DNA of 64,000 bases from Streptomyces sp. NBC_01142 (GTDB taxonomy: Bacteria; Actinomycetota; Actinomycetes; Streptomycetales; Streptomycetaceae): assembly GCF_026341125.1 (NCBI RefSeq), contig NZ_JAPEOR010000003.1, positions 1,488,001 to 1,552,000 on the forward strand. The letters are read 5' to 3'. The notes under the pieces are model-generated. The model did not search any database, was not told the origin of the DNA, and was given only the letters and a program-made list of their open reading frames with translations. The translations under genes and the position numbers were made by a program. Below, one piece after another: positions 18,597 to 37,804 of this stretch. The stretch's first letter is position 1; every line of letters starts with the position of its first letter.

Positions 18597-18617
18597 CCGA
18601 GTCTTCCCGTCAGGTCG

Positions 18618-19421: not shown

Positions 19422-19610
19422 CGTGGCTCATTCTCCCTGCACGTCCATTCGGAACCGGCTACGGCGAAGACAGGCAGCGGTGACGGGGCAGGCCGTAAGC
19501 AACCACGAGCACCCTCCCGCCGTACCCAGCCGTCACACCGCACGGGCGGCAACGCGGCCCGCCACAGCGCCTTTCTGGTGTAACCGCAAGACAGCGACTT
19601 CGTAATTAAG

Positions 19611-21434: not shown

Positions 21435-21492
21435 GTGGGCTCCGTAAATGAGACTCGGATCTTGTGCGTGTCCGTTAGCTGGTTGGAGGCCG

Positions 21493-21792
21493 TCACCGGA
21501 GAGCTGTGCCGAAGGCACGCGCGGTGCAGGAAGCCACGGCGGGTGTGCGGGCTGCGGAGACCTTGGCTGGCAGCCCACGGGCGTGCTGCTTCTCGTCGTT
21601 TTCGAGTTCTTCTTCAGGCAGGAGCAGCAGCTTCGTGCCCGGGTTGATGTTGCCGGGGTCAGTGATGTCGTTCGCCTGGGCGGTCGCTGGCCACAGGCCA
21701 GCATCTCCGTACGCCCGCCAGGCAAGGGCTCGTAGGTTGTCGCCCTCCACACACCTGTGGTGGCTCGCGCCGCTGCCGGAGCCTGCCATCAT
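21493..21792 (-). CDS. small LysM-domain protein
   Basis: A 99-residue protein from an ATG at 21792 with GAGGAGG five bases upstream. Residues 10-65 match a LysM fold (CVEGDNLRALAWRAYGDAGL, then ANDITDPGNINPGTKLLLLP). There is no signal peptide or membrane segment, so it may act in the cytoplasm or be exported another way. LysM binds glycans such as peptidoglycan. It precedes the P450 by 58 bases on the same strand. Its role in the cluster is unknown. Confidence 0.65.
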   Translation of the reverse strand: MMAGSGSGASHHRCVEGDNLRALAWRAYGDAGLWPATAQANDITDPGNINPGTKLLLLPEEELENDEKQHARGLPAKVSAARTPAVASCTARAFGTALR

Positions 21793-21868
21793 TTCAGCCT
21801 CCTCATGCCCGTTGACCACGCCAGGGGCGGCCTCTTCTTCAGATATGTGCCCACGTGGAGAGCCTCCC

Positions 21869-22060
21869 TCACGTGCACCATTTGGGTGAGCCCTTTTCTT
21901 CCGGGTCGTGGAGGAGTCGGCGGGCGAGCTCTGTGTACTTCACGGCGGTGGCCGGGGAGAAGTCGAAGAGCACGGTCAGGGTGAGCTCAGCGATGCCTCG
22001 GTGGCGAGGTCCTCGCCCAATACTCGGTCGGCGCGGATGCGGTCGAGGCTGACCCCGTGT
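21869..22060 (-). pseudogene. fragment resembling the C terminus of an actinomycete site-specific recombinase
   Basis: Two frames read SLDRIRADRVLGEDLATEA and, after a shift, LTVLFDFSPATAVKYTELAR, reminiscent of the tail of recombinase-like proteins in Streptomyces (an RIRADRVLDEA block followed by a short helix-turn-helix). Recalled similarity only. Confidence 0.35.
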
Positions 22061-22210
22061 ATGGCGAGCTAGCGCTTGCGAAGTAAGTGCTAGGTCCGGC
22101 ACGTGACGCGGTTGGGGAGCCCCACTGCCATGTGCGGGCGGTCCCTCGCCCCGGCCGCCGCCCCCAGTCGGCCGTTGCCTGGCTGCTCGGCGGCCCGGGA
22201 TGGAGGGGAA

Positions 22211-22345
22211 CAGCTGAACGGCGCCGAGCTCGTCGACCGCGAACCGTACCCGCGCTGCGGCGCCCCGCCCGGCTCCGCCTGCCGGGCCGACTCCGGCGTC
22301 GTCGCCGTCGACTACCACACCGGCCGCTACTGGGCGTCCCGATAG
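22211..22345 (+). pseudogene. fragment of a small zinc-finger protein
   Basis: The frame LVDREPYPRCGAPPGSACRA, then DYHTGRYW, resembles a short CxxC...CR...H zinc-binding protein of Streptomyces that normally continues further. Here it stops at 22345, and its N-terminal part has no homologue I recall. Confidence 0.35.
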
Positions 22346-22392
22346 TACTCGCGGAAAAACAACGGGATAGTCCCTGACCTGTGGGTATTCAT
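22327..22392 (-). CDS. possible 21-residue peptide
   Basis: An ATG ORF 61 bases after the methyltransferase, same strand, reading MNTHRSGTIPLFF then REYYRDAQ. No ribosome-binding site is visible and it overlaps a remnant on the other strand. Listed because short peptides next to methyltransferases can be precursor peptides; the evidence is thin. Confidence 0.15.
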   Translation of the reverse strand: MNTHRSGTIPLFFREYYRDAQ

Positions 22393-22453
22393 GTGTCCGC
22401 CGCGGGGCTGTGGTACCGGTGCCGTGACGGGAGTCGTGGAGGGCAGCGCGTCT

Positions 22454-23248
22454 TCAGGGGCGTCGGCACAGGAAGAAGGCCCAGCCCACGTCCCCGGCGT
22501 CGATGGCGCGGATGACGCCCTGGTAGATCGCGGCCGTCTCCGGAGAGTGGCCGCGGACGTGGTCGGTCGCCCGCTCGTAGCTGGTGCGCATGTGCGCGGT
22601 GAGGTCCATGGTCCGCTCGATGGTGAAGCCGGCGGCGCGTAGGTGGGCGACGTAGGCGCGGCGGTCGGGTTGGGGCCGCATGCCGGCGACCCGGTCGTAG
22701 TAGAAGCGACGGCCGAGGTCGCTGACCTCCCCGGCGGGGGTAATGATGTCGTCGAGCACGAGCAGCCCGCCGGGGCGCAGCGCCCGGCGGATCTGGTCCA
22801 GCGCAGCGGCACGGTCCTCGACGTGGCAGAGCATGGCCTGGCACCACACGTGCGTGAAGGCACCGTGCTGGAACGGCAGCCGCATCGCATCGGCTCGCAC
22901 GAACCGCACGTGGCTCCCGGTGCGTGGTCGGCTGTCGAGGTGAAGGTGGAGGTCGGCGCCCACGACCGCGCAGCCGGTGGTGCGGGCCAGCCACGCGGCC
23001 GTGGCCCCCGTGCCGCACCCCAGATCAAGTACCGTCGAGTCCTGCGTAATCCCGGCCAGACGGCACGCCAGCGCGTCCCACGCGTCAATCGCCCGCCCCA
23101 GCCCGTCTGGGCCCGGCCCGGATGCCCCGTCGAAGTACCCCCAGTGCATTCGCCCCCGGTCATCCCAGGTCGCGGCATACGCGTCGGCGGCCCGGCGGTA
23201 GTACGCCACCGAACGCCCCGCCGCACCAGTCTCGTCCTGCCCCCCCAC
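22454..23248 (-). CDS. class I SAM-dependent methyltransferase
   Basis: A 264-residue methyltransferase of the UbiE/small-molecule type. Motif I VLDLGCGTGATAAWLA lies near residue 70, an acidic residue ends strand 2 (VVGADLH), FVRADAMRLPF is near 115-125 and ALRPGGLLVLDDII near 160. The N-terminal YFDGASGPGPDGLGRAIDAW recalls glycine/sarcosine or terpenoid C-methyltransferases. The GTG at 23248 is the most upstream start in frame and has only a weak GGGGG upstream. It probably belongs to the tailoring set at 16.9-21.8 kb but is separated by 660 bases of fragments. Substrate unknown. Confidence 0.82.
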   Translation of the reverse strand: MGGQDETGAAGRSVAYYRRAADAYAATWDDRGRMHWGYFDGASGPGPDGLGRAIDAWDALACRLAGITQDSTVLDLGCGTGATAAWLARTTGCAVVGADLHLHLDSRPRTGSHVRFVRADAMRLPFQHGAFTHVWCQAMLCHVEDRAAALDQIRRALRPGGLLVLDDIITPAGEVSDLGRRFYYDRVAGMRPQPDRRAYVAHLRAAGFTIERTMDLTAHMRTSYERATDHVRGHSPETAAIYQGVIRAIDAGDVGWAFFLCRRP

Positions 23249-23482: not shown

Positions 23483-25082
23483 TCAGCTTGTTCTTTATCT
23501 ACCAAGATCTTCCGGGCTTGCCGATGGCCTTGAGGGTCTCGGCGCGTTTGACGGTCTTGCCGACGTCGTAGCGGGGTGCCCGGTGTTTGTTCTTGGCGCC
23601 GGGTGGCCGTCCGGGGCCGGCGCCTCGGGGTTTGGGAACACGGGTTGGGCAGGCGAGGTGAGCGCGGATGTTCCTGAACCCCCGGCGGACCCGGGCCGGG
23701 GTGAGCCGGTCGGAGGTGGCGGGTTTCTCCCAGGGCCGGCGGAGGTCCGCGGCGAGCGGCCGGGCGAGCCGGAGCTGGGTGTGAGCGACGATCAGGATCC
23801 AGGTCCAGCGGTCCGCCGCCTCGGGAGTACGGAGTTTCGGAGTGGTCCAGCCCAGGGTCTGCTTCGCGAAGCGGAAGGTGTGCTCCAGATCGAAGCGACG
23901 GAGAAATGCCTGCCAGAAGCGGTCCACGTCGTCCGGGGTTGCGCCGGTCTTAGAGGACCATAACCACACCGGCGGGGCATCCCGGTCCTTCGACAGATGC
24001 TCGACCTTCAACCGCATCAACGTCCCCTCGACCAACGGCAGTTCACCATCGTGGTCGAGCCAGGAGGAGCGGTGGGTGAGCCTTGGGTGGACCCGGTCCC
24101 ACGCCTGGGTCTCGGCCTTGCCGTAGTTGGTCGTGTCCGTGACCGTGGTGATCGCGGGCTCGGGCCAGGTTTCCGGCTTGGTGAAGCGGAATTCCGGACC
24201 GTGCTTGGGCGGCCGGCCGTTGACGCCGTGCATCCTCGGCGGCTTCGGCAGACGCATCACGCGGTCGGAGCGGACCCGGCCGACCAGCTCGACCGGCAGG
24301 TCGCGCAGGACCCAGGCCAGGCGGGTGACGTCGTAGCCCGCGTCGCTGACGACCACGATATGCGGGTCCCCGGTCTGCCACTGGCCTGCGGCGATGAGCC
24401 GCTCGACGACACCCCTCAACTGGGCGGCGGTGATCGCGGTCGCGTCGTCCGCAGGGCCGAGCCGCACCGCGTCCAGGATCGCGGTCCAGGACGTGGCACC
24501 CGGCTCCAGCACGGCCACGAAGGAGTAGGGCCAGCCCGGAATGAACTGCGACGCCGTCTTCGCCCGGCCGTAGACGTGGCAGAACAGCCGCTCCGCCGAA
24601 CACGGCGCGTCCGAACGAAGCCACGGCGACACATCGACCGCCAGCACCAGGCGCCCGCCGTCGAAACGCGGCAGCGACAGCCCGGCCAGCAACGCCCGCA
24701 GCCGACCGACGTCGAGCCGGCCGTGGTTCAAGCCGCCGTACATCGCTCCGTGCCCACGACGATGCTCGGGCAACAGCGTCAAGTCCACCGGGGACTTCAC
24801 CGCACCGTCCGCACACAGCACCGCGTCCGCCAACTCGAACAACTCGTCGCGCCGAGCGGTCAGACACTCGTAGAACTCTCCCCGGAAGCGTGACGCTTCC
24901 GCGAACGCTTCCCTCCGGACAGCATCAGGCAGCAGACTCACCCTCACGGCCTTCGTCGTGGTCACGTGCACCTTGGTCGGAGCACATGATCAGGCGAAGG
25001 CCGCCCCCGCGTCCGGCGAATCCCCAGGTGAGCGACTCAGTTCGAGACACCATTCGAGACCGGAAGATAAAGAACAAGCTCA
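23483..25082 (-). mobile_element. insertion sequence with an NF041680-type transposase
   Basis: About 1600 bp bounded by inverted repeats sharing AGCTTGTTCTTTATCT (23485-23500 and 25065-25080). The transposase stop lies inside the left repeat. No target duplication was found by eye, so the exact ends are uncertain by a few bases. Confidence 0.8.
23499..24971 (-). CDS. transposase (NF041680/IS701-like DDE type)
   Basis: A 490-residue transposase. LVLAVDVSPWLRSDA near 110-125 holds the first Asp, HIVVVSDAGYDVTRLAW near 205-220 the second, and RRFDLEHTFRFAKQTLGW near 365-380 the Glu. The C terminus is basic (GRPPGAKNKHRAPRY) as in relatives. Length is full and no shift was seen, so the element may be active. 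The start could be the GTG encoding the V of VRVSLLPDAV rather than 24971. Confidence 0.88.
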   Translation of the reverse strand: MHVTTTKAVRVSLLPDAVRREAFAEASRFRGEFYECLTARRDELFELADAVLCADGAVKSPVDLTLLPEHRRGHGAMYGGLNHGRLDVGRLRALLAGLSLPRFDGGRLVLAVDVSPWLRSDAPCSAERLFCHVYGRAKTASQFIPGWPYSFVAVLEPGATSWTAILDAVRLGPADDATAITAAQLRGVVERLIAAGQWQTGDPHIVVVSDAGYDVTRLAWVLRDLPVELVGRVRSDRVMRLPKPPRMHGVNGRPPKHGPEFRFTKPETWPEPAITTVTDTTNYGKAETQAWDRVHPRLTHRSSWLDHDGELPLVEGTLMRLKVEHLSKDRDAPPVWLWSSKTGATPDDVDRFWQAFLRRFDLEHTFRFAKQTLGWTTPKLRTPEAADRWTWILIVAHTQLRLARPLAADLRRPWEKPATSDRLTPARVRRGFRNIRAHLACPTRVPKPRGAGPGRPPGAKNKHRAPRYDVGKTVKRAETLKAIGKPGRSW

Positions 25083-25639
25083 GGAGGGCCCCAGTTCGGG
25101 TCGGTCGCTTCAGGGGTCCGTTCCTCCTCCGCCAGCTCATCGTCACCGTGATCATTGCCGAGTTGGCGGAGAGTGAGGCGAACTGCTCTGGCTGCGTCAG
25201 GCCCGGGCGACGCCCAGCGGCGTTTGCGCGCCGCACCGCGCTCCTGAACACGGCGTTGGCACCGCAGCGGCTTGCGGAGGTTTCCCCGGCGGCCCCGTCA
25301 GGGTGCCCGTATCCGATCGGTGTGGCTACGACGGCTGCTGACGCTTGGTTTGGTGAAGTCGTACGGCTTGGCGTAAGTCGCACGTTTGGGCGCAGGTTGT
25401 TGTGGCGTGTTCTTCCGGGGCTGGCCCTACACTTCGTCGGGTACGGAAAGTGGCGATTTGCTCATGTAGGGCCGTCTGCGTCTTCGTGGACTCATGGCAA
25501 TTTCGCGTGCGCGCTGCACGTGGCTGGTCACGAAGCAAGCTGCTCCCTCCAGGTCCGCCGGTTCTCGGCCTTCTGCTGGGCGGCCCTGTCCCGCATCCCG
25601 AACATCTGGTGCACCTCACTTGGCAAAGGAGCCCCTTCC

Positions 25640-27508
25640 ATGGCCACCAAGCAGAAGAAGACCGCGTCGTCCAAAGCTTCCGGCAACGGGCAGGACAAGC
25701 TGATCACATCTTTGAGGCAGTTCATCCGGACCAAGGGCGCGGGCTACCTGAAGGACCCGAACGTGACGTCCGTCGGGATCGGCTACAAGGAGAAGGACGG
25801 GAAGCGGGGCAAGGAGATCTCGCTCCAGTTCACCGTCGGCAGGAAGGTGGAGCCGGAAGGCCTCGAAGCGCTGGCGACCACGCAACTGCCCGAATCGGTC
25901 GTCGTCGACGGCGTCGAGGTGCCCACCGACGTCATCGAGCGCACATACGAGACCCAGTTCCGTGTCGTCGCCGAGGCGGAGAGCCCGGCCCGCAAGACCC
26001 GTCTCGACCCGATCGTCCCCGGCGCGAGCATCGGGCACGTCAAAGTCTCCGCCGGGACCATCGGAAGCATCGTCTTCGACAAGAACGACGGCACCCCCTA
26101 CATCCTGAGCAACTGGCACGTACTGCACGGACACCTCGGCGAACTGGGCGACGACATCGTCCAGCCCGGCAAGCACGACGACAACCGCATCGCCCGCAAC
26201 CACCTCGGCACCCTCAAGCGCTCCCACCTGGGCATGGCCGGCGACTGCGCCGTCGCCACCATCGACGGCCGCACCTTCACCCAGGACATCCACGAACTCG
26301 GCGTCATCCCGCAGGACCTGGGCGAGCCTGACCTGGGGGACAAGGTCGTCAAGAGCGGCCGCACCACCGGCGTCACCCACGGCGTCGTACGGCGTATCGA
26401 GACCATCGCCGCGATCGACTACGGCCCGGGCGTCGGCGAACAGGCCATCGGATGCTTCGAGATCGCCCTCGACCCCGACAACCCGCCCGAGAACGGCGAG
26501 GTCAGCATGGGCGGCGACTCGGGCTCGGTATGGATGTTCAAAACATCCAACGGCCGCCCCGGCAAAGTCATGGCCGGCCTGCACTTCGGCGGCGAGAGCG
26601 GAGACAACCCGGACGAGCACGCCCTCGCCTGCCTGCCGCGCTCCGTGTTCGAGAAACTCGACATCAGTCTCCAGCCGCCCACCCTCGACCAGGCCGAAGT
26701 CATCGCCGGCTACGCCCCCGACTTCCTGGGCAAGCGCATCGACCTCCCCAAGCTGAACGCTGCCATCAAGAGCGACGCCGTCCAGCTCGACGGATCCGAG
26801 GTCATCCCCTACACCCACTTCTCCCTCGCACTCAGCGAGTCACGCGGCTTCGCCTTCTACGTCGCCTGGAACATCGACGGCGCCTCGCTCAAGAAGCTCA
26901 GCCGCAACGGCATCAAGTTCGTCAAGGACAACCGCATCCCCGATGACGTCCAGGTCGGCAATGAACTGTACGAGGACAACCCGCTCGACCGCGGACACCT
27001 CGCACGACGCGCCGACCTGCTGTGGGGCAGCCCCGCCGAGGCCAAGAAGGCCAACATCGACTCCTTCATCTACACCAACATCACCCCGCAGATGCAAGAC
27101 TTCAACCAGAGCAGCAAGGGCGGGCTGTGGGGACAGCTCGAGGACGCCGTCTTCGCCGACGTCGAGGTCGACGACCTGAAAGTGAGCGTCTTCGGCGGAC
27201 CGGTCTTCCAGGAAGACGACCGCCTCTACCGCGGCATCCAGATCCCCCGTGAGTACTCGAAGGTCATCGCCTTCCTGGAGAACGGCGAGCTCAAGGCCAG
27301 AGCCTTCCTGCTGACCCAGAACCTCAACCAGCTCGAAGCCCTCGAACTCGACGAGTTCCGCGTCTTCCAGATCAGCCTCAGCGAAGTCGAAGAACGCGGA
27401 CGCTTCCGCTTCCCCACCGCACTGCGCAACGCCGACACCCTCATCGTCCCCGAGGCACTGGTGGACCGCGGCCCGCTTGAAAACCTCGCCGACATCCAGT
27501 GGCACTAA
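25640..27508 (+). CDS. trypsin-like serine protease fused to a DNA/RNA non-specific endonuclease
   Basis: A 622-residue two-enzyme protein. The first half is a trypsin-fold peptidase: TPYILSNWHVLHG carries the His (near 158), AGDCAVATID the Asp (near 202) and VSMGGDSGSVW the Ser (near 295). The second half is an NucA/EndoG-type nuclease, with NPLDRGHLARRADLLWG near 450-465 supplying the DRGH metal site and ITPQMQDFNQ following. No signal peptide is seen; the basic N terminus (ATKQKKTASSK) suggests a cytoplasmic protein. The ATG at 25640 has AAAGGAG eight bases upstream; the longer frame from 24890 is non-coding. Such fusions fit conflict effectors in which proteolysis unleashes a nuclease. 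Confidence 0.9.
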   Translation: MATKQKKTASSKASGNGQDKLITSLRQFIRTKGAGYLKDPNVTSVGIGYKEKDGKRGKEISLQFTVGRKVEPEGLEALATTQLPESVVVDGVEVPTDVIERTYETQFRVVAEAESPARKTRLDPIVPGASIGHVKVSAGTIGSIVFDKNDGTPYILSNWHVLHGHLGELGDDIVQPGKHDDNRIARNHLGTLKRSHLGMAGDCAVATIDGRTFTQDIHELGVIPQDLGEPDLGDKVVKSGRTTGVTHGVVRRIETIAAIDYGPGVGEQAIGCFEIALDPDNPPENGEVSMGGDSGSVWMFKTSNGRPGKVMAGLHFGGESGDNPDEHALACLPRSVFEKLDISLQPPTLDQAEVIAGYAPDFLGKRIDLPKLNAAIKSDAVQLDGSEVIPYTHFSLALSESRGFAFYVAWNIDGASLKKLSRNGIKFVKDNRIPDDVQVGNELYEDNPLDRGHLARRADLLWGSPAEAKKANIDSFIYTNITPQMQDFNQSSKGGLWGQLEDAVFADVEVDDLKVSVFGGPVFQEDDRLYRGIQIPREYSKVIAFLENGELKARAFLLTQNLNQLEALELDEFRVFQISLSEVEERGRFRFPTALRNADTLIVPEALVDRGPLENLADIQWH

Positions 27509-29180: not shown

Positions 29181-29726
29181 CTATCCCGCGAGGAGGCTCA
29201 CGGGTCTGGAGCGCTGTAGAACGCCGTCTTCGAGGTAGGCCGTCTGGCCGATGGCCAGAGCCTGGAGCCCAAGGAGAGCCCGCCGCCGCGCGCGTTCGGG
29301 AAGTTCGGCGATGACTCGGGCGGTGGGAAGAGCATGCAGGGTGGCACGCGGATCGCGGTAGGTAAGCGGCGCGACAGCCTCCTGGGTGAGGGGCGCGGTC
29401 GCCACAAGGTGAGTGATGACCTTCCGGCTCCGCATCTGCACGGAGTCCCGCAAGACTCGCCGGAGCACAGGAATGCCGTCCGGGGCGCCGACGAAGACAT
29501 GTTGGGCTGCTTCTTCCGGTGTCCGCTCACAGTCCATGGCCCCGACGGGGAGCATCAGATTGCCCCGGCCGGACACGTCGGCGACAAGCAGCGCGTCGGC
29601 TCCGACGGGCACCAGTAAGGAAACCCCGATCACCGGAGGTCGCCAGTTCTCGTACGCAGCTCTGCGCCGGGAGGGCGGGAGGCGCGCGGCGGAAGCCGCC
29701 GGAGAGAGGGGCGCGGAGGTCGGCAT
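29181..29726 (-). CDS. NUDIX-fold protein with a degenerate catalytic box
   Basis: A 181-residue protein, last gene of the nucleotide operon. VIGVSLLVPVGADALLVADV, then GRGNLMLPVGAMDCERTPEE and AAQHVFVGAPDGIPVLRRVL follow the NUDIX fold, but the box lacks the REUxEE glutamates, so it may bind rather than hydrolyse its ligand or belong to a divergent subfamily. The ATG at 29726 shares one base with the upstream stop (TGATG). From its neighbours the ligand should be a modified nucleotide, but this is inference. Confidence 0.65.
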   Translation of the reverse strand: MPTSAPLSPAASAARLPPSRRRAAYENWRPPVIGVSLLVPVGADALLVADVSGRGNLMLPVGAMDCERTPEEAAQHVFVGAPDGIPVLRRVLRDSVQMRSRKVITHLVATAPLTQEAVAPLTYRDPRATLHALPTARVIAELPERARRRALLGLQALAIGQTAYLEDGVLQRSRPVSLLAG

Positions 29727-30502
29727 CAGGATCCGCCCGTCACAGCGGTGACGATTTGGTCGAGGTGTTCCGGCTGGCTGGTGCTGGGGACGGGAGCGAC
29801 GTGGTCGCTGAGCTGGAGGAGCCATTGCAAGGGGGCGAAGACCCCGTGGGTGCGGGCGAGGGTGCCCGCGTCGAGCGGCCTGTACGGCACGTAGGGAATG
29901 TTGAGGTCGCGGCAGAGTTCGAGGGCCGGGTCATGGCGGTCGGTCATATTGAGGACGTTCTGCACCGCCGCAATGGTGATGTCCTTGCCAGCCATGCGGA
30001 TGGCCTCGGGGGTGACCTTTGACAGGCCGATGTGCCCGATCTTGCCTTCGTCCTGGAGGGCCTTGAGCGTGCCGAGTTGGTCGGCGGCCAGCACCTCGGG
30101 GTCGATGCGGTGGAGGTAGCAGAGTTCGAGCCGTTCGACTCCCAGGCGGCGCAGGCTCGCTTCGACGCAGGACCGCAGGTAGACGGGGTGGCCGTGAGGA
30201 GCCCAGACGTTGGGGGCGGGTCGGGCCAAGCCGACCTTCGTGGCGATCAGCACCTGCTCCGGGTAGGGGTACAGGGCGTCACGGATCAGGTGCTCGACGG
30301 TGTGGGGGCCGTAGGAGTCCGCGGTGTCGATGTGCGTGATGCCGTGGGTGTGCACGGCCCTACGGAGCACGCTGATCGCGGTGTCCCGGTCGTTGGGGTC
30401 GCCCCACGTGCCGGGCCCCGTCAGACGCATGGTGCCGAAGCCGAGCCTGGAGACGGTCTTGCCGGCGATGGTGATGGTGCCCACGGACGAAACGGCGGTC
30501 AT
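29726..30502 (-). CDS. aldo/keto reductase
   Basis: A 258-residue NAD(P)H-dependent reductase of the AKR fold. TVSRLGFGTMRLTGPGTWGD opens the barrel; the catalytic set is Asp in HIDTADSYGPH (Asp and Tyr), Lys in LIATKVG and His in LCYLHRID; GKIGHIGLS is the conserved strand 6. It is slightly shorter than the usual 280-330, mainly at the C terminus. ATGA overlap with the P-loop gene and AGGAGG upstream indicate coupled translation. In this operon it may reduce an aldehyde or ketone on a sugar or base-derived intermediate. Confidence 0.88.
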   Translation of the reverse strand: MTAVSSVGTITIAGKTVSRLGFGTMRLTGPGTWGDPNDRDTAISVLRRAVHTHGITHIDTADSYGPHTVEHLIRDALYPYPEQVLIATKVGLARPAPNVWAPHGHPVYLRSCVEASLRRLGVERLELCYLHRIDPEVLAADQLGTLKALQDEGKIGHIGLSKVTPEAIRMAGKDITIAAVQNVLNMTDRHDPALELCRDLNIPYVPYRPLDAGTLARTHGVFAPLQWLLQLSDHVAPVPSTSQPEHLDQIVTAVTGGS

Positions 30503-31089
30503 ACGGCGGCCTCCTGGAGGCAGAGCTGAAGCGCCTGCTCGATGGCACGCAACTGGCTGACGGGGTCGCTGGTGACGCGCACGTGCGGGATCGGGTCGTC
30601 GGCGAGGAGACCGTGCACGTGTTGGTCCACCAGGAGCCGGTACCGGGGGTCGTAGTCGTGGCTCTGGTCAACCGGCACATCCGGGTCCAGCACGGTGGCG
30701 AAGAGCAGGTCGTACTTGGGGGCCTGCGTCGAGGCGAGAAGCCGCAGACGCTCCCTCTCCAGCCGGTGCAGGTGCTCACCGCGGAACTCAACGGCGGCGT
30801 GGAGATACGCGATGGCGTCGAGCGAGGCCCGGTCGGCGAGGACGACTTCAGCGCCCTGTGCCGCGGCAGCGATCTCGTCAGCTATGCCCTGCGCGATGAT
30901 CCACTCGGTGGAGGCGGCGGTGTGGTGCTGCATCTTCGGCAGGCCGATGCCCGCAGCGCGCTTGGCCAGGCGACCGGTGCGGGCCACGGAAATGCCGTGG
31001 CCGCGCACCTCCATTTCGATCCGTTTTAAGAGGGTGGTCTTGCCGGTGGAGTGGGTGCCGAGCACGCCGATACGGATGGGATTCACCAC
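30499..31089 (-). CDS. P-loop NTPase, probable small-molecule or nucleotide kinase
   Basis: A 196-residue AAA/kinase-like protein. Walker A GVLGTHSTGKTTLLKRI is at residues 8-24, VVLADRASLDAIAY near 85 resembles a Walker B followed by the DR(A/S) motif of nucleoside and nicotinamide-riboside kinases, and a lid-like Arg-rich helix (LERERLRLLAS) follows. Size and architecture resemble NadR-type or deoxynucleoside kinases rather than a motor ATPase. The GTG at 31089 or 31086 overlaps the exonuclease stop. A nucleotide kinase fits the predicted pathway. Confidence 0.75.
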   Translation of the reverse strand: MVNPIRIGVLGTHSTGKTTLLKRIEMEVRGHGISVARTGRLAKRAAGIGLPKMQHHTAASTEWIIAQGIADEIAAAAQGAEVVLADRASLDAIAYLHAAVEFRGEHLHRLERERLRLLASTQAPKYDLLFATVLDPDVPVDQSHDYDPRYRLLVDQHVHGLLADDPIPHVRVTSDPVSQLRAIEQALQLCLQEAAV

Positions 31090-31688
31090 AGGGTGGGTTC
31101 CTCTTCTGGTTCGGAGGCGCCAGGCAGGCCGGGCGGCACGGCCGCGGCGACGAGCTGGTCCCAGGTGTCGTAGTGGTTGGCCATGGCGGTGAGGAGCTGC
31201 GCCGTGGCGTACGCGTCGTACGTTGCTCGGTGCCGCCCGACGGCGGGGGCTCCTGAAAGGTCGAGCTGCGCATGGGTGATCAGCGCGTCGAGCCCGTATG
31301 AGGGCAGAGCCTTGTAGGTCGCCCTGGCAAGGCGGAGCGTGTCAATGACTCCGGCCGGCTCCCACTTCGGCAGATGCGCCTTCAGCACCCGGTAGTCCAC
31401 GTGCGCGTTGTGGGCGCAGATCCAGGCGTCGCCCAAGAGGCCATGGACTTGGCCGGCGATCTCGTCCCATCCGGGGGAGTGGGCGAGGACTTCGTTGGTC
31501 AGGCCGTGGATCCGGGCCGCGTACGGGGTGACGGGCCGGGGCGGGCGGATCAGCCATGTCCCGGCCGTGGTGGTGTCCGCCTGGCCGTCGCGGATAGGCA
31601 GCGCTGCGACCTCGACCAGGTCGGGCGGGTTCCCGCCGTTGCCCTCGACATCTACGACAAGCAGCTTCGGCCAGGCGGCGAATTTCAT
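31083..31688 (-). CDS. DEDDh-type 3'-5' exonuclease
   Basis: A 201-residue exonuclease-domain protein. KLLVVDVEGNG supplies the first Asp-x-Glu, CAHNAHVDYRVLKAHL near 105 the second Asp, and GRHRATYDAYATAQLL near 160-170 the catalytic His and last Asp, the DEDDh arrangement of DnaQ/oligoribonuclease proteins. The N terminus is at the ATG at 31688, overlapping the radical SAM stop by four bases; an upstream extension to 31775 lies inside that gene. It could trim nucleic acid or hydrolyse a nucleotide phosphoester. Confidence 0.85.
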   Translation of the reverse strand: MKFAAWPKLLVVDVEGNGGNPPDLVEVAALPIRDGQADTTTAGTWLIRPPRPVTPYAARIHGLTNEVLAHSPGWDEIAGQVHGLLGDAWICAHNAHVDYRVLKAHLPKWEPAGVIDTLRLARATYKALPSYGLDALITHAQLDLSGAPAVGRHRATYDAYATAQLLTAMANHYDTWDQLVAAAVPPGLPGASEPEEEPTLW

Positions 31689-32872
31689 GGCGTGGGAGTT
31701 CCGTTCTCCGCCTTCCAGCCGATCGGGGCCCGGCCGTGCTGGCGGTAGTGATGGGGCTTTGCTCGGTCGTGGCACTGGTAGCCGTAGCCGTGCTGGAGGT
31801 AGTAGCGCGGCGGCTCGTCCAGTCCCTCAACGATGATCGCGCGCTCGTCTACCTCTACAGGCCCCGTCGCGCCGAGGGCTCGGGCTTCCTCGGCCACCTC
31901 GGCAAGGTCCGGCTTGACCCACGCCCTCCGGCACAGGCGAAGCTGGTCCTCGGGGCAGATGTTGCACAGCTCCCTGATGCCGTAGTGCCCGTTGTAGTCG
32001 GCCTCACCATGGGCATAGGCGACACCGCAGCTCGTCTTGCGGAACAGGGCTCCCCACGGCGCGCTGGTGTTCTCCGGCCGGTGGAAGAAATCGAGAATCC
32101 GCCTCTCGGCTACCTCCGGCATGATCTTGCGCCGAGCCGTGTCGTCGTACGGCACCGGCAGGCCGTGGGCCGCGTAGTACGAGGCGATCTCCTCACGGAA
32201 GAACAGGCCGGTGAAGACGGTGGCGTGGGCGTGGGTGGACAGCTCGCGGGCTCGTTCGAGGTGCGCGTCGCTGTCGTTGAGGCCCGGGACGATGGGCCGC
32301 CAGTACAGGACGGTGCGGTACCGCTCGGCGTGCTCGAACAGGGTGCGCAGGCTCGTAGCGGCGATGTTCGAGTCCACCGGCTCGATTTCCGCGTTGCCGA
32401 TGCCCGAGTGGGTGACCAGGACGGTCAGCCGCAGGTTCTTGAAGGAGTTGAGCGTGGCGCAGTCGTCGGGCTCAACGCGCCAGCGGGTGATGATCAGGAC
32501 GTGGTTGGTCAGGCCCTGCGCGTCCAGGTGCCGCAGCACGTTGAACACGTGAGGCTTGACCGCCGGCAGCATCGGATCGGTGGCCCGGTTCAGGAGCTGG
32601 ATAGGCGTCTTGTGAGGCCGGAAGTACGGGTGGGTGACGAGGGCCGCCACGGCTTCCTCGTCGCTCATGAGCCGCCGCGGGACCTTCATCCCGAAGTTGT
32701 CGAACAGGTGGCGGACGCAGTAGCTGCACTCCAGCGGACAGCCGACGATCCAGTTCAGGGACAGGCCGGACTTGCGGTACTCGATCACGTCCGCCAGCGA
32801 CGGCTTCAGCTCCCCGATCTTGGCCGGGGTGAGTATGGGCAGAGGGCGGCGATGGAACGTGGGAGCGCTCAT
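31685..32872 (-). CDS. radical SAM enzyme with an extra C-terminal cysteine cluster
   Basis: A 395-residue radical SAM protein. The [4Fe-4S] loop is C-x3-C-x2-C in GCPLECSYCVRHLF near residue 45-55. A TIM-barrel core follows (LNRATDPMLP, VLIITRWRVEPDD, RLTVLVTHSG, VLYWRPIVPGLND). Near 285-320 a second group (SCGVAYAHGEAD, LCNICPEDQLRLC) suggests an auxiliary Fe-S cluster. Overall it resembles spore-photoproduct-lyase-like or SPASM-type proteins, but I cannot name the subfamily. The ATG at 32872 lies 26 bases after the NDK-like gene. In the operon it is the likely catalyst of the most unusual step. Confidence 0.85.
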   Translation of the reverse strand: MSAPTFHRRPLPILTPAKIGELKPSLADVIEYRKSGLSLNWIVGCPLECSYCVRHLFDNFGMKVPRRLMSDEEAVAALVTHPYFRPHKTPIQLLNRATDPMLPAVKPHVFNVLRHLDAQGLTNHVLIITRWRVEPDDCATLNSFKNLRLTVLVTHSGIGNAEIEPVDSNIAATSLRTLFEHAERYRTVLYWRPIVPGLNDSDAHLERARELSTHAHATVFTGLFFREEIASYYAAHGLPVPYDDTARRKIMPEVAERRILDFFHRPENTSAPWGALFRKTSCGVAYAHGEADYNGHYGIRELCNICPEDQLRLCRRAWVKPDLAEVAEEARALGATGPVEVDERAIIVEGLDEPPRYYLQHGYGYQCHDRAKPHHYRQHGRAPIGWKAENGTPTP

Positions 32873-32898
32873 GGGTGCCTCCAGTTCAAGGGGACGGG

Positions 32899-33453
32899 TC
32901 AGCTCTCGACGGGTGCGGCAGCCTGCGGGAAGAGCAAGGCTCGGCGGTTGGCCCCGTACCAGGTGCCGAAATCGCGGCGGGCCGCTTCCGAGTCGTCGGA
33001 CGTGTGGACCAGGTTGTTCACCAACCGCTTCTCGGCGAGCGCCTGGTCCAGGCTGTCGTCACCGAGGTCGCCGCGGATGGTGCCGGCCGCTGCCCTCGAC
33101 GGGTCGTAGTGGCCGAGCTCGTTGCGCAGCCGTTCGTGAATGCCCGGCGAGCCGGAGGCGAGCGCGACGGCGACGGTCTGGCCCACGTAGAGGCTGTCCA
33201 GAGACGCGGGGATGTCCCGGCCGCCGAACCAGTCGGCATCGACCAGCAGATCCCAGTAGTGCACGTGGATCTGCCAGGGGGCGACCGTGACGTTCTGCCG
33301 GCCGACGATCGTCACCCCCGGCAGAGCCAGGCGCTCCAGGATGGTGTCGGTCAGGCCCCGCTCGACCGCGTCCGGCTTGCACAGGATGACCGACCAGTGG
33401 CCCCAGCCCACGCCGTTGACCACGGCGCCGCTGCGCGAAGGCTTCCCGCTCAC
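32899..33453 (-). CDS. nucleoside diphosphate kinase-like protein
   Basis: A 184-residue protein of the NDK fold. HWSVILCKPDAVERGL is the first strand with the KPD motif, VAVALASGSPGIHERLRNEL and PSRAAAGTIRGDLGDDS match the NDK core, and NLVHTSDDSEAA near 150 holds the catalytic His (NxxHGSD in canonical enzymes). Compared with housekeeping NDK (about 137 aa) it has insertions around WDLLVDADWFGGRD and QALAEKRLVN, pointing to a divergent substrate. The GTG at 33453 overlaps the stop of the thymidylate-synthase-like gene (GTGA). Expected to make triphosphates from the operon's product. Confidence 0.85.
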   Translation of the reverse strand: MSGKPSRSGAVVNGVGWGHWSVILCKPDAVERGLTDTILERLALPGVTIVGRQNVTVAPWQIHVHYWDLLVDADWFGGRDIPASLDSLYVGQTVAVALASGSPGIHERLRNELGHYDPSRAAAGTIRGDLGDDSLDQALAEKRLVNNLVHTSDDSEAARRDFGTWYGANRRALLFPQAAAPVES

Positions 33454-34469
33454 TCGGCACCTCCGGAGATGGCACACGATGCCCAGCGCTGTTCCAGCAG
33501 CCAACGCAGGCCCGGGTCCAGCGCCTTGAGGACCCCGGCGTCCACCACGTCGGCGCGGTCGTACTGGATCTGGCGGTAGACCTCGAACAACAAGAGGATC
33601 TGCTGCCAGTACGGCTCCAGCCCGAGGTCCGCGATATCGGCCGGTCCGTACCGCACCTTGTTGGTACGTAGCCCTTCCTCGTGTTCGAGGACACGCAGCA
33701 CGGTCGCCGCAGTGGTGTTCCCGGGCATCACCAGCGGGGCGAACTCAATCGGCGCCGGCCGGGTGGCCGCCTCCTCCAGGACACGTCCGACGCGGTCGGC
33801 GTTGCGGTCGTTGACGTGGGCCGACCCCATGAAGTGCGTGTATGTGCCCAGTCCCAGGCGGAGCTGGATGGCCGCGTACTCCTGAATCATGGTGAAGCTG
33901 AACACGTCACTGAGCAGGCCACAGTCGAGGTCGTTGGCACGCATGTTGCACACCATGTGCAGCCGTCCGCCGCGAGCGAGAAGGTGAAGACCGGCCAGAC
34001 ACGCCATGTCGGGGTTGTCACAGATGGCTAACTCCCGGGCGGAGAAGACCGGCAGATAGCCGCGCTTGCTGTCCTCCTCGGTGCGCAGCAGGTCCAGGAC
34101 ACGGTCGAACGGAGACGCGGTGTCTCCGTCGGCCGGGCTGAAGAGCGTGTAGCCGTACGCGGAGCCGCCCAGGTTCACAGCGTCGGGGGAGCTGGAGCGC
34201 ATGGACGGCGCGTAGTAGCCGATCATCTCCAGGTCCCGGCGGCCGGCCAGGTACCAGAGGGCTTCGGCGAATTGAAAGATCGGGTTCACCCTGCGCTGCT
34301 CCAGGTACGGCAGTCGCTGACGCGGGTCCGGCAGACGGAACCCAACGCCGATCACCTCGCGTGCGTCGTTGCCGCGCGCGGCGATGCGGTGCTCGTGCTT
34401 CTCCGTCGCCAGCTCCAGCAGGGCCACATATGCCCCTTCGAGGCTGGGATAGCTGGGGGGTGTGAGCAT
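33450..34469 (-). CDS. thymidylate-synthase-fold protein, predicted (d)CMP hydroxymethylase-like
   Basis: A 339-residue ThyA-family protein. Aligned without gaps to E. coli ThyA from the catalytic Cys, query CLAGLHLLARGGRLHMVCN then MRANDLDCGLLSDVFSF, the Cys, GxL, Arg (RS-x-D motif), Asp and Gly all fall in register. The Asn of ThyA's PFN, which selects uracil, is Asp here (LLSD). Asp at this site is the mark of dCMP hydroxymethylases, so cytidylate rather than dUMP is the likely substrate. The downstream HxY motif is AHVN. The ATG at 34469 has GGAG upstream. It starts the enzymatic part of the operon and is coupled to the NDK-like gene. Confidence 0.82.
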   Translation of the reverse strand: MLTPPSYPSLEGAYVALLELATEKHEHRIAARGNDAREVIGVGFRLPDPRQRLPYLEQRRVNPIFQFAEALWYLAGRRDLEMIGYYAPSMRSSSPDAVNLGGSAYGYTLFSPADGDTASPFDRVLDLLRTEEDSKRGYLPVFSARELAICDNPDMACLAGLHLLARGGRLHMVCNMRANDLDCGLLSDVFSFTMIQEYAAIQLRLGLGTYTHFMGSAHVNDRNADRVGRVLEEAATRPAPIEFAPLVMPGNTTAATVLRVLEHEEGLRTNKVRYGPADIADLGLEPYWQQILLLFEVYRQIQYDRADVVDAGVLKALDPGLRWLLEQRWASCAISGGAE

Positions 34470-34615
34470 GAAGTCTCCAGTTCGAGATCAGGGCGCGAGA
34501 ACAGATACGTGTGGCGCTGTGCTTGCGATCCGACGCGGGACTGCGACGTCCCGCGCCGGGGTCTTGCGCCGTCCGACGGTCCGGGCTCAGGGCATCCGGA
34601 CCGACGGACGGACAT

Positions 34616-35284
34616 CTAGACCGCGACTGTCGATACCGCGAGTTCTTCGAGATCGAGGGTCGTGCAGCCCTGAAGGGTGACGACCGTGCGGGCTGCGAGC
34701 GTCCAGCGGAGGTGCGGGTCGTCGTATGCCACGAAGGTGAGATCACCCTGTTCGGCAGGCAGCGGCTGAAGAGTCCTGGGGTCGTGCACGATGCCGGCGA
34801 CGCCCCAGGACGGGCTGAACTCCACCAGCGCGGCGGTGAAGCTTTTCCGAAGGTGCGGGCAGTCCCGTACGGCCTCCCGCGCGCAGGCTTCGTGGACCGG
34901 CGGCGTGACGGTCTTCTCGCCCTCACTGATCGGTTGCCCGTCCGCAGCGCGGACCAGGAACAGGTGCCGCCCATCGGGCCGGCCGAAGGTGGACCCGCCG
35001 CAGACCTGACACAGCATGTGGCTCATGGCGTGCCGTTGGCGCAGCGCGTGCATCCCGGCGAGTTTCGGCGTGCCGACGCCGCGCGTGGCGGCCATCCTGA
35101 CCCACAACGTGCTGTCCTTGCGGTCAGCCCGGCTGTATTCGTCCGCGTAGCCGATGCCTTCCCCGTCGATGCCCCGCCGCCGCACGATCGGGCCGGGAAG
35201 AGTTGTCTCTCCTGACCACGGCGCTATGAAGGGCACGCGGATGCCCTTCCAGAAGAACTGGCGGGGGCTGAGCGGGGCGGTCAC
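34616..35284 (-). CDS. hypothetical zinc-ribbon-like protein, 222 aa
   Basis: No known family. SPRQFFWKGIRVPFIAPWSG and IGYADEYSRADRKDSTLWVR open the protein; MLCQVCGGSTFGR and VHEACAREAV give a C-x2-C...C arrangement that may bind zinc; VTLQGCTTLDLEELAV ends it. The GTG at 35284 overlaps the DUF6415 stop (GTGA). The gap of 146 bases to the thymidylate-synthase-like gene could hold an internal promoter. I recall similar proteins next to HATPase/TPR regulator pairs in Streptomyces accessory DNA. Confidence 0.6.
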   Translation of the reverse strand: MTAPLSPRQFFWKGIRVPFIAPWSGETTLPGPIVRRRGIDGEGIGYADEYSRADRKDSTLWVRMAATRGVGTPKLAGMHALRQRHAMSHMLCQVCGGSTFGRPDGRHLFLVRAADGQPISEGEKTVTPPVHEACAREAVRDCPHLRKSFTAALVEFSPSWGVAGIVHDPRTLQPLPAEQGDLTFVAYDDPHLRWTLAARTVVTLQGCTTLDLEELAVSTVAV

Positions 35285-35727
35285 TCGTTCTCCTTCAGGG
35301 AATCCGGCGCCTTCATGCATCCAGTCGCGACCAGCAGATCCAGCAGCTCGTTGACGGCCCAGCCCATCCGCCGGAGGTGGCTGGTGGCTTGCTCGTAGTC
35401 GGCGGGCAGCTCCTCGGCGCGCACGGCACGGGCCCGCGCGAGGAGTTTGGCGGCCCGCGCGTCGCGCTTCTCGGCTTTCGCTGTGATGGCAATGTTCACG
35501 ACCTGCTTCAGGTGGTCGCGGAGCCGCTGCGCGAGCTCCTTCACGTCCGCCTCCGGCGGCATGACGGAATCGAGCGCGTCCGCCACGTCGTCCAGCAGAG
35601 CGTCACCGTCGTATGCCTTCCAGGCGCGGAGCTTCGCTAGGACGCCTTCTGTGCCGTTTGGGTCCATCGGCGGTTCCCAACGTGCCACGGGGCGGTGCCA
35701 GCGGCCGGTGAGGGCGGCAGAGGTCAC
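35281..35727 (-). CDS. DUF6415-like protein
   Basis: A 148-residue protein. VARWEPPMDPNGTEGVLAKL, RAWKAYDGDALLDDVADAL and RRMGWAVNELLDLLVATGC match my memory of DUF6415, labelled as natural-product-biosynthesis-associated. Mostly helical, no catalytic motif; probably an accessory or regulatory protein. The GTG at 35727 overlaps the HATPase stop by four bases and its own stop overlaps the next start, making a coupled trio. Confidence 0.65.
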   Translation of the reverse strand: MTSAALTGRWHRPVARWEPPMDPNGTEGVLAKLRAWKAYDGDALLDDVADALDSVMPPEADVKELAQRLRDHLKQVVNIAITAKAEKRDARAAKLLARARAVRAEELPADYEQATSHLRRMGWAVNELLDLLVATGCMKAPDSLKENE

Positions 35728-36245
35728 TGGCCGACTCCTGTGGCCGGGAGGAGACACCAGACGGTCGCGCCGGAGTCGCTGATCCCCCAGGTGCCGCCGT
35801 GCGTGACGGTGCACCATTCGACCAATTCGAGGCCGCGGCCGTGCTCTGCGTCGTCGTCGGCTTTCTGGACCGAAGGATTCCCTGGCACGTTGCTCTTCAC
35901 GAGGACGTACAGGGCCTCGTCCTGGAGCTGCATGGTGAAGGTGACGTGAGTGCCGCCGCTGTGCGTGATCGCATTGGTCACCAGCTCGGAGACGATGAGC
36001 GCCACGGTGTCCTTCAAGCCGGACAGACCGCAATAGCTTAGGCGTGCCTTGGCCAGGCGACGCATGGCACCGACGCGGCGAGCGTCTTTCGAAAGCGGTT
36101 CTTCGCCTGGTCCACGCTGCGCGATCTCGAAGTCAGTGCTCATTAAGTCGTACGTGCGAGGGCGGTTGGCCGCGTGAGGCAGGGGCCCGCCGACGAACGC
36201 GCTCTTGGCAGGAAGGGTCGTACCTCGGGCCACAGCCGTACCCAT
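35724..36245 (-). CDS. RsbW-like HATPase regulator
   Basis: A 173-residue GHKL-type ATP-binding protein. The N-box IVSELVTNAITHSGG near 95-108, the D-x-G region in DDDAEHGRGLELVEWCT and a C-terminal SGATVWCLLP strand fit single-domain anti-sigma-like kinases common in Streptomyces. The ATG at 36245 has GAGGAG four bases upstream. It heads the operon and faces the TPR regulator across a 200-base divergent promoter region, a very common Streptomyces pairing. Confidence 0.82.
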   Translation of the reverse strand: MGTAVARGTTLPAKSAFVGGPLPHAANRPRTYDLMSTDFEIAQRGPGEEPLSKDARRVGAMRRLAKARLSYCGLSGLKDTVALIVSELVTNAITHSGGTHVTFTMQLQDEALYVLVKSNVPGNPSVQKADDDAEHGRGLELVEWCTVTHGGTWGISDSGATVWCLLPATGVGQ

Positions 36246-36308
36246 TGACTCCTCCTCGTCGCGGTATGAACACATAGCGTTCTGCGACGAGGGTGGCTGT
36301 GACTATGT

Positions 36309-36445: not shown

Positions 36446-37804
36446 ATGGGCGAGGATCGGCGCACAGTGCTGTACACGCTGGTGATCGAACGAGGTATCC
36501 GCTCGCACAAGTCGTTCAGCGATGAGTACGCACGCGTCGCGGAGCAGTTACGGGCCGAGGGCCAAGACGTGGCTCCCGCACCAGTGGCACGTCACTACGA
36601 GCGCCTGCTGGTCGTCGGGGGACTCAAGAGCCAGCCGTACTCTCCGACTGCCCGGGTCTTGGAGCGCATGTTCCATTGGCCCGTCCTGGATTTGCTGCGC
36701 CCGGCTTCCGAAATGCCGGAGTTGGAGCGTCAGCATTCCACTCCGCGGGCCGCAACTTCGCCTGTGCTCAACGAAAGTGAACTGCTGATGACCGCTCGGG
36801 ACGCCGCCGAACACGCCGGTGAGGCCGCCTCGCTCCACTTGGACGAGATGACGCTCGACCAACTCCACGACGACCTCGTAGAGCTCGCCCGTAAGTACGG
36901 CTGCACCGCCCCGGCCGAGGTCTGCCAGCGCGCGAGCAGCCTGCTGCGCACGGCGCAGGTGCTGCTGGAACGCACCCGTTCCCCCGAACAGCACGCCCGG
37001 CTCTACTACGCAGCCGGGCAGGCCACTGCGCTGCTGTCCGCAGTCTCGTTCGATCTGGGAGCGCTCGCGCCGGCCGTCTCGTTCGCCCGTTCCTCCGCGC
37101 AGTACGGCAAGACCATCGAGCATGGCCCGTTGCAGGCGTACGCCTACGGCATGCTGGCCTTCATGGCGTTCTGGGACGGTCGTCCCAGCGAAGCAGTCCG
37201 ACTGGCCAAGAGCGCCCAGCAGTTCGGAGGACTGGGGGACACCGCCTGCCGCCGGCTGTACGCCATCGAGGCCCGCGCCTACGGGCATCTACGCAACGCT
37301 GACCAGGCGCAGCGCGCCATCCGAGACGCGCTGGAGCACAGCAGCGGCGCCCGAGACGAGTTGCACGACGACATTGGCGGCGAGTTCGGCTTCGACGCCG
37401 CCCGGATTGCGATGAGCAACGCGACGACCAGTCTGCTGCTGCGCGACGCCGAGGGAGCGGAAGCCTCAGCCACCAGGGCCCTTGCCCTGCTGAGCAGTCG
37501 CCCTACAGCCGAGCAACCGATCGTGGTCTCAGGGCCCGCAGCGATCGACCTGGCCCGCTCGCGGCTGATGCGCAGCGAGGTGGAGGGCGCGCACGAGGCC
37601 CTGGCGCCGGTCTTCCGGGTGCCGCCGGACTGGCGTGGCGCCGGCATGCTGGAGCGCCTGACGGCCGCACGGATCGAGCTGACGCGCCCCGAACTCCGGA
37701 GCGCGCCAGCAGCCCTCACCCTGGCCGAGCAGATCGAGGACTTCAGCGCCCTTTCTCCTGCGCGCAGGCTCGGCGCCACGAGCCCGCTCGCGATCGAGGG
37801 CTGA
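36446..37804 (+). CDS. DNA-binding regulator with a TPR domain
   Basis: A 452-residue protein. The first 85 residues form an XRE-like domain (VLYTLVIERGIRSHKSFSDE then EQLRAEGQDVAPAPVARHYE); the remaining part is a run of helical TPR-like repeats (YYAAGQATALLSAVSFDLGA, AYGMLAFMAFWDGRPSEAVR, RRLYAIEARAYGHLRNADQA). ATG with GGAGGGG five bases upstream. Such regulators usually pair with an RsbW-like HATPase, as here, and sense an intracellular signal through the TPR domain. It is divergent from the nucleotide operon and probably controls it. Confidence 0.8.
   Translation: MGEDRRTVLYTLVIERGIRSHKSFSDEYARVAEQLRAEGQDVAPAPVARHYERLLVVGGLKSQPYSPTARVLERMFHWPVLDLLRPASEMPELERQHSTPRAATSPVLNESELLMTARDAAEHAGEAASLHLDEMTLDQLHDDLVELARKYGCTAPAEVCQRASSLLRTAQVLLERTRSPEQHARLYYAAGQATALLSAVSFDLGALAPAVSFARSSAQYGKTIEHGPLQAYAYGMLAFMAFWDGRPSEAVRLAKSAQQFGGLGDTACRRLYAIEARAYGHLRNADQAQRAIRDALEHSSGARDELHDDIGGEFGFDAARIAMSNATTSLLLRDAEGAEASATRALALLSSRPTAEQPIVVSGPAAIDLARSRLMRSEVEGAHEALAPVFRVPPDWRGAGMLERLTAARIELTRPELRSAPAALTLAEQIEDFSALSPARRLGATSPLAIEG

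Follow-up and report, generated by a model that had tools for sequence, protein, structure and literature searches.

The described systems that come closest to the ten-gene operon considered here, found on the minus strand of a 64,000-nucleotide stretch of Streptomyces sp. NBC_01142 DNA (contig NZ_JAPEOR010000003.1, positions 1,488,001 to 1,552,000; this whole stretch is the window below), are a cytidine monophosphate (CMP) hydroxymethylase pathway and a cassette built on a radical S-adenosylmethionine (SAM) enzyme. An exonuclease of the DEDDh class, nsp14 ExoN, is also relevant. As excerpted from PMC9415739, this exoribonuclease can remove ddhCMP, a terminator made by a radical SAM enzyme, from RNA, so that an exonuclease is able to undo such a terminator. 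MilA, of mildiomycin biosynthesis, is a CMP 5-hydroxymethylase in which Asp186 serves the recognition of cytosine and Lys133 and Ala176 the preference for ribose (PMC5175136, in extract), and in the mildiomycin/bacimethrin pathway a MilB-type N-glycosidase acting on hydroxymethyl-CMP is linked to the homologue of thymidylate synthase (ThyA) (PMC4081090, in extract). The nearest published logic, compared by gene set and as far as the extracted account goes, would be the thmA-C genes of Photorhabdus, a working example that makes 4'-thiothymidine with a radical SAM enzyme, a nucleoside kinase and a triphosphatase conferring self-resistance (PMC12691670). Set beside these, the conserved heart of our operon is a trio of radical SAM enzyme, DEDDh exonuclease and kinase, and its ThyA-fold enzyme and nucleoside-diphosphate kinase (NDK) are an actinobacterial add-on. 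The operon may be an unrecognised route to a toxic or protective nucleotide. Its genes, with one divergent neighbour, are as follows (window coordinates).

35724..36275, minus strand, RsbW-like HATPase, regulatory, accessory (Pfam HATPase_c_2, 1e-8)
35281..35727, minus strand, DUF6415 protein, accessory (Pfam, 7.3e-18), overlapping the HATPase gene by 4 bases
34616..35284, minus strand, CxxC protein, DUF6302-like, accessory (PHROG 30088, function unknown, 6e-22, its sole family match)
33450..34469, minus strand, MilA-like (CMP hydroxymethylase-type) ThyA-fold enzyme (Pfam Thymidylat_synt, 9e-13; MilA, 6.9e-67)
32899..33453, minus strand, NDK-like nucleoside-diphosphate kinase (Pfam NDK, 8e-16; catalytic His retained)
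31685..32872, minus strand, radical SAM enzyme, core (CxxxCxxC motif, predicted structure, and a second four-Cys set, C282/C303/C306/C314)
31083..31688, minus strand, DEDDh 3'-5' exonuclease, core (Pfam RNase_T, 5e-18)
30499..31089, minus strand, AAA_28 P-loop kinase of the dTMP-kinase/NadR fold, core (Pfam AAA_28, 1e-12)
29726..30502, minus strand, aldo/keto reductase (AKR) (Pfam Aldo_ket_red, 4e-51; Asp/Tyr/Lys/His retained)
29181..29726, minus strand, last gene, family unknown (earlier label: degenerate NUDIX)
36446..37804, plus strand, divergent protein, probably regulatory, which may not belong to the operon (no Pfam match)

We consider the trio as it recurs in other genomes. Relatives of the radical SAM enzyme were drawn from plasmids, species genomes (the best 80 of 235 loci) and viral contigs (7), and because the genome loci were chosen by similarity to the window's radical SAM family, loci with ThyA are over-represented. 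Genes in unannotated loci were called with a simple custom caller, and co-occurrence was counted over the 89 loci having at least 3.5 kb on either side (10 of the 99 were dropped for short flanks). Among the collected loci the order radical SAM, DEDDh, kinase recurs almost everywhere and across phyla. A DEDDh gene lies near the radical SAM gene in 88/89 loci and a kinase gene in 83/89; AKR is present in 51/89, NDK in 43/89 and ThyA in 42/89. All 42 loci with ThyA also have NDK, against one of the 47 without ThyA, and the corresponding counts are 37/42 and 46/47 for the kinase and 23/42 and 0/47 for the last gene. The trio stands without ThyA and NDK in actinobacteria (Nocardia, Pseudonocardiaceae) and, beyond them, in Pseudomonas, a Melainabacteria metagenome-assembled genome, Rhizobium, Sinorhizobium, Agrobacterium, Mesorhizobium, Labrenzia and Gluconobacter. 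The conserved co-occurrence of the enzymes, which a reading of this DNA from its letters (the sequence-only reading) had proposed, is thus borne out by the neighbourhood comparison. The same reading had made the radical SAM enzyme a tailoring enzyme; this has to be revised, since the enzyme belongs to the conserved heart and should be read as central.

On a tree of the radical SAM sequences (87 rows), where the nearest rows to the window sequence are from Streptomyces, the presence of ThyA changes 5 times against a mean of 29.3 when shuffled (0 of 500 shuffles as low); six of the ThyA-positive labels were added by hand, and L081 (which has ThyA) and L019 (a partial piece) are mislabelled as ThyA-negative, the 5 changes being an upper figure. 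ThyA and NDK therefore look like a largely single addition inside the actinobacteria, with losses. Identity matrices compared with that of the radical SAM enzyme give Mantel r values of 0.63 for ThyA, 0.55 for NDK, 0.85 for DEDDh, 0.74 for the kinase and 0.83 for AKR (p 0.001 each), values that kinship among the loci inflates, which makes this evidence less than independent.

The added ThyA-fold protein has MilA as its best solved relative (PDB 5jnh, 6.9e-67; 5b6d, 1.1e-66; full length, residues 8-330), and thymidylate synthases trail at 1.8e-9 in the same structure-database comparison. It also matches 320 phage ThyA/pyrimidine hydroxymethylase records, every one at less than 60% identity. The homology to MilA and BcmA is full-length, with the equivalents of Cys, Glu, Lys133, Ala176, Asp186 and His216 kept. 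In the window protein K135, A178, D188, C157 and H218 agree with MilA, and Asn220 stands for MilA Tyr218. That an Asp occupies the base-recognition position, as had been claimed, is confirmed both by the alignment, where Asp188 pairs with MilA Asp186, and by the counts over 50 operon ThyA sequences: Asp in 50, Lys in 50, Ala in 48 (Gly in 2), the catalytic Cys in 50 and the His216 equivalent in 50. The position of Tyr218 holds N in 32, G in 13, C in 3, R in 2 and Y in none. These samples keep some near-identical pairs (4 of the 50 ThyA rows, and two pairs of radical SAM sequences); with such rows removed (n = 46) the ThyA counts become D 46, K 46, A 44 and, at the Tyr218 site, N 31, G 11, C 3, R 1. 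The residue counts for ThyA, NDK and DEDDh sequences include frames trimmed by script.

Because the MilA residues for cytosine (Asp) and for ribose (Lys, Ala) are kept, hydroxymethyl-CMP is a likelier product than its deoxycytidine monophosphate (dCMP) counterpart. The hydroxymethyl-(d)CMP of the sequence-only reading survives as a cytidine-type hydroxymethyl substrate and loses its dCMP part, as Lys and Ala favour ribo-CMP; its branch toward a modified DNA base is weakened by the same residues, on which a dCMP/DNA-base route was also rejected as the leading idea. Since Tyr218 is never kept (0/50), we call the enzyme MilA-like and not a member of MilA/BcmA, and the loss warns that the predicted substrate may differ from plain CMP. 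The operon differs further from these pathways in coupling its ThyA to NDK, radical SAM enzyme, DEDDh exonuclease and kinase. A MilB-type glycosidase was detected in none of the 99 operon loci, nor in the window, with two nucleoside 2-deoxyribosyltransferase queries at E 1e-3 (the queries find each other), and so the nucleotide is probably kept; base release of the mildiomycin/bacimethrin type was rejected on this ground. On these residues and neighbours a ribo-cytidine nucleotide would be hydroxymethylated, not cut to the free base, and its sugar end would be recognised differently. Tyr218 does persist in two other MilA-like proteins, encoded at Streptomyces plasmid loci (L141, L142) where a nucleoside 2-deoxyribosyltransferase gene of the MilB type is close by.

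The radical SAM enzyme itself has a marginal Pfam match (0.081, under the cut-off); the CxxxCxxC motif is present, however, and structure prediction gives a fold matching known radical SAM enzymes, nearest to spore photoproduct lyase, with the nucleotide-acting viperin also among the matches. From viperins (ddhCTP synthases) it differs in its greater length and in the extra four-Cys set, which is invariant in the family; no Pfam, NCBIfam or PADLOC match (0.01) names viperin, and the likeness is at the level of fold. From spore photoproduct lyase it differs in its gene neighbours, in the Cys set that the window family carries C-terminally and in the lack of a sequence-level PDB match to that enzyme (a search with the family profile returned one unrelated chain, E 0.45). 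Remote relatives of the enzyme sit in nucleotide- or sugar-type operons. In one remote clade three relatives (L143, L146, L147) adjoin glycosyltransferase, class II aldolase and MurA-like enolpyruvyl transferase genes, a fourth (L148) has only the aldolase and enolpyruvyl transferase genes beside it, and L143 and L146 also have DEDDh and kinase genes after the radical SAM gene. We take the setting of these four to resemble the enolpyruvyl transferase plus radical SAM logic of nikkomycin and polyoxin. The operon of another remote relative (L149) carries annotations for two dCTP deaminase-type genes, a cytidine deaminase, a methyltransferase, a UTP-glucose-1-phosphate uridylyltransferase, a glycosyltransferase and a HAD hydrolase.

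The DEDDh residues D42, E44, D145, H182 and D187 (numbered in the longer open reading frame) are present in at least 95% of 111 sequences, and the catalytic His of the operon NDK (NLVHTSD) in at least 95% of 58. In AKR the Asp/Tyr/Lys/His set, which we take to be its catalytic tetrad, is kept as D 52, Y 54, K 54 and H 53 (n = 54). The predicted fold of the kinase is that of nucleotide and nucleoside kinases, and the two phosphorylating enzymes foreseen from the sequence are supported as NDK and AAA_28 kinase families. In four rhizobial or Labrenzia loci an HD protein follows the trio, and the one that was compared falls in the SAMHD1-like triphosphohydrolase family (PDB 2o6i, 1.3e-43). The window lacks this combination of radical SAM enzyme, kinase and SAMHD1-like HD protein, which occurs in 4/89 loci and may parallel thmA-C; our operons are set apart by gene content, with DEDDh added, AKR in 51/89 loci, and ThyA and NDK in the actinobacteria. 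Two papers stand aside from these comparisons: the albomycin kinase AbmG is called a deoxycytidine kinase homologue in the extract of PMC9032320, and a paper on diDNase activity (PMC11706625), as extracted, is about enzymes of the NrnC type (DEDDy), a class to which the operon's DEDDh does not belong.

The ThyA and NDK of the operon are dedicated copies. In the genome (10.1 Mb, 15 contigs) the single ThyA-family match is the operon gene, ThyX is found elsewhere (6.7e-49), and a second, strong NDK match also lies elsewhere (4.4e-50). Housekeeping synthesis of deoxythymidine monophosphate (dTMP) was rejected as the operon's function, given ThyX and the Asp where thymidylate synthase has its uracil-selecting Asn.

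Within the window's genus, 27 of 295 genomes have a radical SAM match at E 0.001; 15 of these span nearly the whole protein with an identity of at least 57%, and the rest are partial or remote. Streptomyces plasmids carry copies of the operon with the gene order unchanged. In samples of whole phyla, 1/396 genomes of the window's phylum and 1/398 of the phylum of the Pseudomonas locus (in the latter with up to 4 candidates scored per genome among the rows listed) were positive, each being the locus's own copy; the family is therefore rare and patchy. Many partial radical SAM matches occur in Streptomyces (L017-L022, L024, L026, L028-L030 and several plasmid rows), some of them maybe contig ends, and they suggest fast turnover.

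We give an even chance to the reading that the operon is a mobile cassette for an intracellular nucleotide analogue, against which the producer is protected by the exonuclease and, in some loci, by a SAMHD1-like or NUDIX hydrolase. We infer the chemistry, the order of steps, the product, the self-protection and the target from the genes, their conservation, their residues, the predicted folds and the contexts. The core radical SAM enzyme would alter a nucleotide through radical chemistry, the dTMP-kinase/NadR-fold kinase would lift the modified nucleotide toward the triphosphate, and the DEDDh exonuclease would spare the producer, either by excising the analogue once it has entered the cell's nucleic acid or by cutting the analogue itself. 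Lineage-specific extras would join these: AKR, which would carry out a reduction, the SAMHD1-like triphosphohydrolase of the rhizobial and Labrenzia loci, and NUDIX in a Nocardia. In streptomycetes and their relatives, the MilA-type ThyA would make a 5-hydroxymethylcytidine-type nucleotide from methylenetetrahydrofolate, whose triphosphate the dedicated NDK would finish. The product would act against phage or competitors, and phage are favoured as the target because of the alphaproteobacterial contexts. By this account the operon is filed as a variant among radical-SAM-based nucleotide-analogue cassettes, outside every family compared. No described gene set like it was found in the open-licence literature, judged by titles and the openings of abstracts; with PADLOC-DB 2.0.0 at 0.01, only DEDDh of the ten operon proteins matched (a generic DEDDh model, and PDC-S48), and identity with a known PADLOC system was rejected. 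The statement that no named system with this gene set is known holds up in both comparisons.

The alphaproteobacterial contexts are those of six plasmids, chosen out of 9 fetched non-actinobacterial plasmid loci (two Labrenzia and one Nostoc were left out). With PADLOC at 1e-8, and with the module's own genes and end-cut genes excluded, the 65 neighbours drew 222 models and the 96 control proteins 11, numbers that count models, many of which fall on a single gene, and not genes, and that come from plasmids picked once the annotation had been seen, 5/6 of them Hyphomicrobiales. The controls are stretches 100 kb off on the same plasmids, taken round the circle for Mesorhizobium. Among the matches listed are GajA/GajB, a CBASS cyclase with E1-E2 and phospholipase, SduA, ThsB, a dGTPase and LmuB; GajA, GajB and E1-E2 have best E-values below 1e-200, and the best control has 1.9e-38. 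Individual neighbours were also recorded: on psymA of Sinorhizobium meliloti (L139) a single hypothetical gene separates the trio from an upstream set of CBASS type (patatin, DncV-like, ThiF), in the Pseudomonas locus (L114) a SIR2-like gene adjoins AKR, and a viral-contig copy (L124) has a HerA-like gene upstream.

Several observations weigh against the analogue cassette as we propose it, besides the limits on the Mantel values and plasmid counts just given. In eight neighbourhoods from the window's own genus there is no defence enrichment, with 18 PADLOC models for 101 proteins against 25 for 113 control proteins (116 control proteins were called and 113 scanned, three very large ones being left out), and for this reason the window copy is not called a proven defence system. 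With Tyr218 replaced, ThyA may have weak or changed activity toward CMP. No recognisable kinase is present in 5/42 loci with ThyA, and a Nostoc plasmid locus has the radical SAM enzyme and kinase with DEDDh absent. DEDDh enzymes, moreover, often act on ordinary RNA or DNA.

The same early chemistry could serve an exported nucleoside antibiotic, released against competitors with no role in phage defence. This is the most plausible of the alternatives, and we still think it rather unlikely. It agrees with the Streptomyces host, the plasmid-borne copies, the regulatory HATPase and DUF6415 genes in the operon, the thmA-C precedent and the Streptomyces copies that lack defence enrichment; it has to face two kinases that drive toward the triphosphate, a trio that lies in defence islands on the six alphaproteobacterial plasmids, and ten genes among which Pfam recognises no exporter, phosphatase or glycosidase. 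Repair or end-processing of nucleic acids, in which a radical SAM enzyme like spore photoproduct lyase repairs or edits DNA or RNA, DEDDh trims ends, and the kinase or HD/NUDIX proteins sanitise pools, is unlikely. Similarity of fold does not show the substrate, and such a system would leave the CMP-hydroxymethylase-type ThyA with its constant NDK (42/42) unexplained, as well as the remote radical SAM relatives that adjoin enolpyruvyl transferase and aldolase or glycosyltransferase genes.

A signalling nucleotide, whether cyclic, dinucleotide or hydroxymethylated, that switches on an effector would suit the CBASS and Thoeris-type genes of the defence-island contexts and the failure to recognise a toxin among the ten genes. 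The family matches of the operon include no cyclase and no receptor of the CARF/SAVED type, and we regard this as quite improbable. DNA hypermodification of the phage type, with hydroxymethyl-dCMP made for the element's own DNA, is more doubtful still: the ThyA fold does match the phage hydroxymethylase records at low identity, but the residues are the ribose-type Lys and Ala and not Arg and Ser, neither a DNA polymerase nor a glucosyltransferase is among the ten genes by Pfam, and a tblastn comparison of the Rhizobium radical SAM enzyme with 50,697 phage records gave no hit. That ordinary dTMP and nucleoside triphosphate salvage genes came together by chance is hardly credible; every enzyme is from a common superfamily, but ThyX and another NDK exist elsewhere in the genome, Asp stands where Asn is expected, and the order of the genes is conserved across families.

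Beyond the analogue cassette itself, we put forward tentatively, and as an improbable extension, an unrecognised class of small-molecule immunity. Here the radical SAM/kinase/DEDDh cassette, spread horizontally, would make a chain terminator or fraudulent nucleotide within the cell, a dedicated proofreading exonuclease would spare the host, and in streptomycetes ThyA and NDK would turn the product into a 5-hydroxymethylcytidine-class triphosphate whose sugar is altered before ThyA acts; a sugar already altered at that step would explain the lost sugar-binding Tyr. Radical SAM enzymes that yield nucleotide antimetabolites are, to our knowledge, few. If the proposal is true, a compact mobile trio with a built-in candidate immunity nuclease would supply new nucleotide analogues in a form that is simple to test, and natural-product chemistry would be tied to bacterial defence islands. 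A MilA-like enzyme with a rewired sugar pocket gives a sharp and cheap substrate prediction.

We turn our attention to the layout of the operon and its accessory genes. All ten genes described earlier as co-oriented are present on the minus strand, with refined starts from 36275 down to 29181, and the remark that most junctions overlap by 1-7 bases is true of 7/9. Six overlaps are of 4, 4, 4, 4, 7 and 4 bases, and the seventh, between AKR and the last gene, is of 1 base when ATG 29726 is taken as the start of the last gene (the preceding CTG is also in frame); the other two junctions are a 146-base gap ahead of the ThyA-fold gene and a 26-base gap ahead of the radical SAM gene. Families were checked in Pfam, NCBIfam and PADLOC for the ten proteins and in PHROGs for 7/10. 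Among the earlier family labels, HATPase, DUF6415, ThyA, NDK, radical SAM, DEDDh, kinase and AKR stand, and "degenerate NUDIX" does not, as the last gene has zero matches in Pfam, NCBIfam and PHROG. A true NUDIX gene (3.5e-21) lies directly after the kinase in a Nocardia locus (L083, 11390-11830), which makes the NUDIX idea reasonable, and in a Nocardia plasmid locus (L033) a gene named for the dihydrofolate reductase family lies upstream on the opposite strand. A HATPase homologue is close to the radical SAM gene in 11/89 loci, a homologue of the CxxC protein lies immediately upstream of it in one locus (L079), and the gene in the CxxC position of a plasmid relative is annotated DUF6302. The open reading frames upstream of the operon in 37 loci form one loose cluster, 34 of them on the opposite strand, and 14 of the 38 members match the protein at 36446..37804.

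Elsewhere in the window, a long protein (24890-27508, plus strand) with a C-terminal DNA/RNA non-specific endonuclease domain (2.2e-37) lies near the 3' end of the operon. At 2505-8794 (minus strand), a pPIWI-RE protein (RNaseH_pPIWI_RE 1.2e-35, pPIWI_RE_X 1.7e-21) has a large neighbour with a weak AAA_22 match, and we take the pair, a single observation about 20 kb from the operon, to be a predicted defence module. Carbamoyltransferase, DDAH/ADI-like, cytochrome P450 and methyltransferase genes cluster at 16872-23248 (minus strand), possibly as a small natural-product cluster, and a single protein at 11808-12677 (minus strand) joins ASCH and NUDIX domains.

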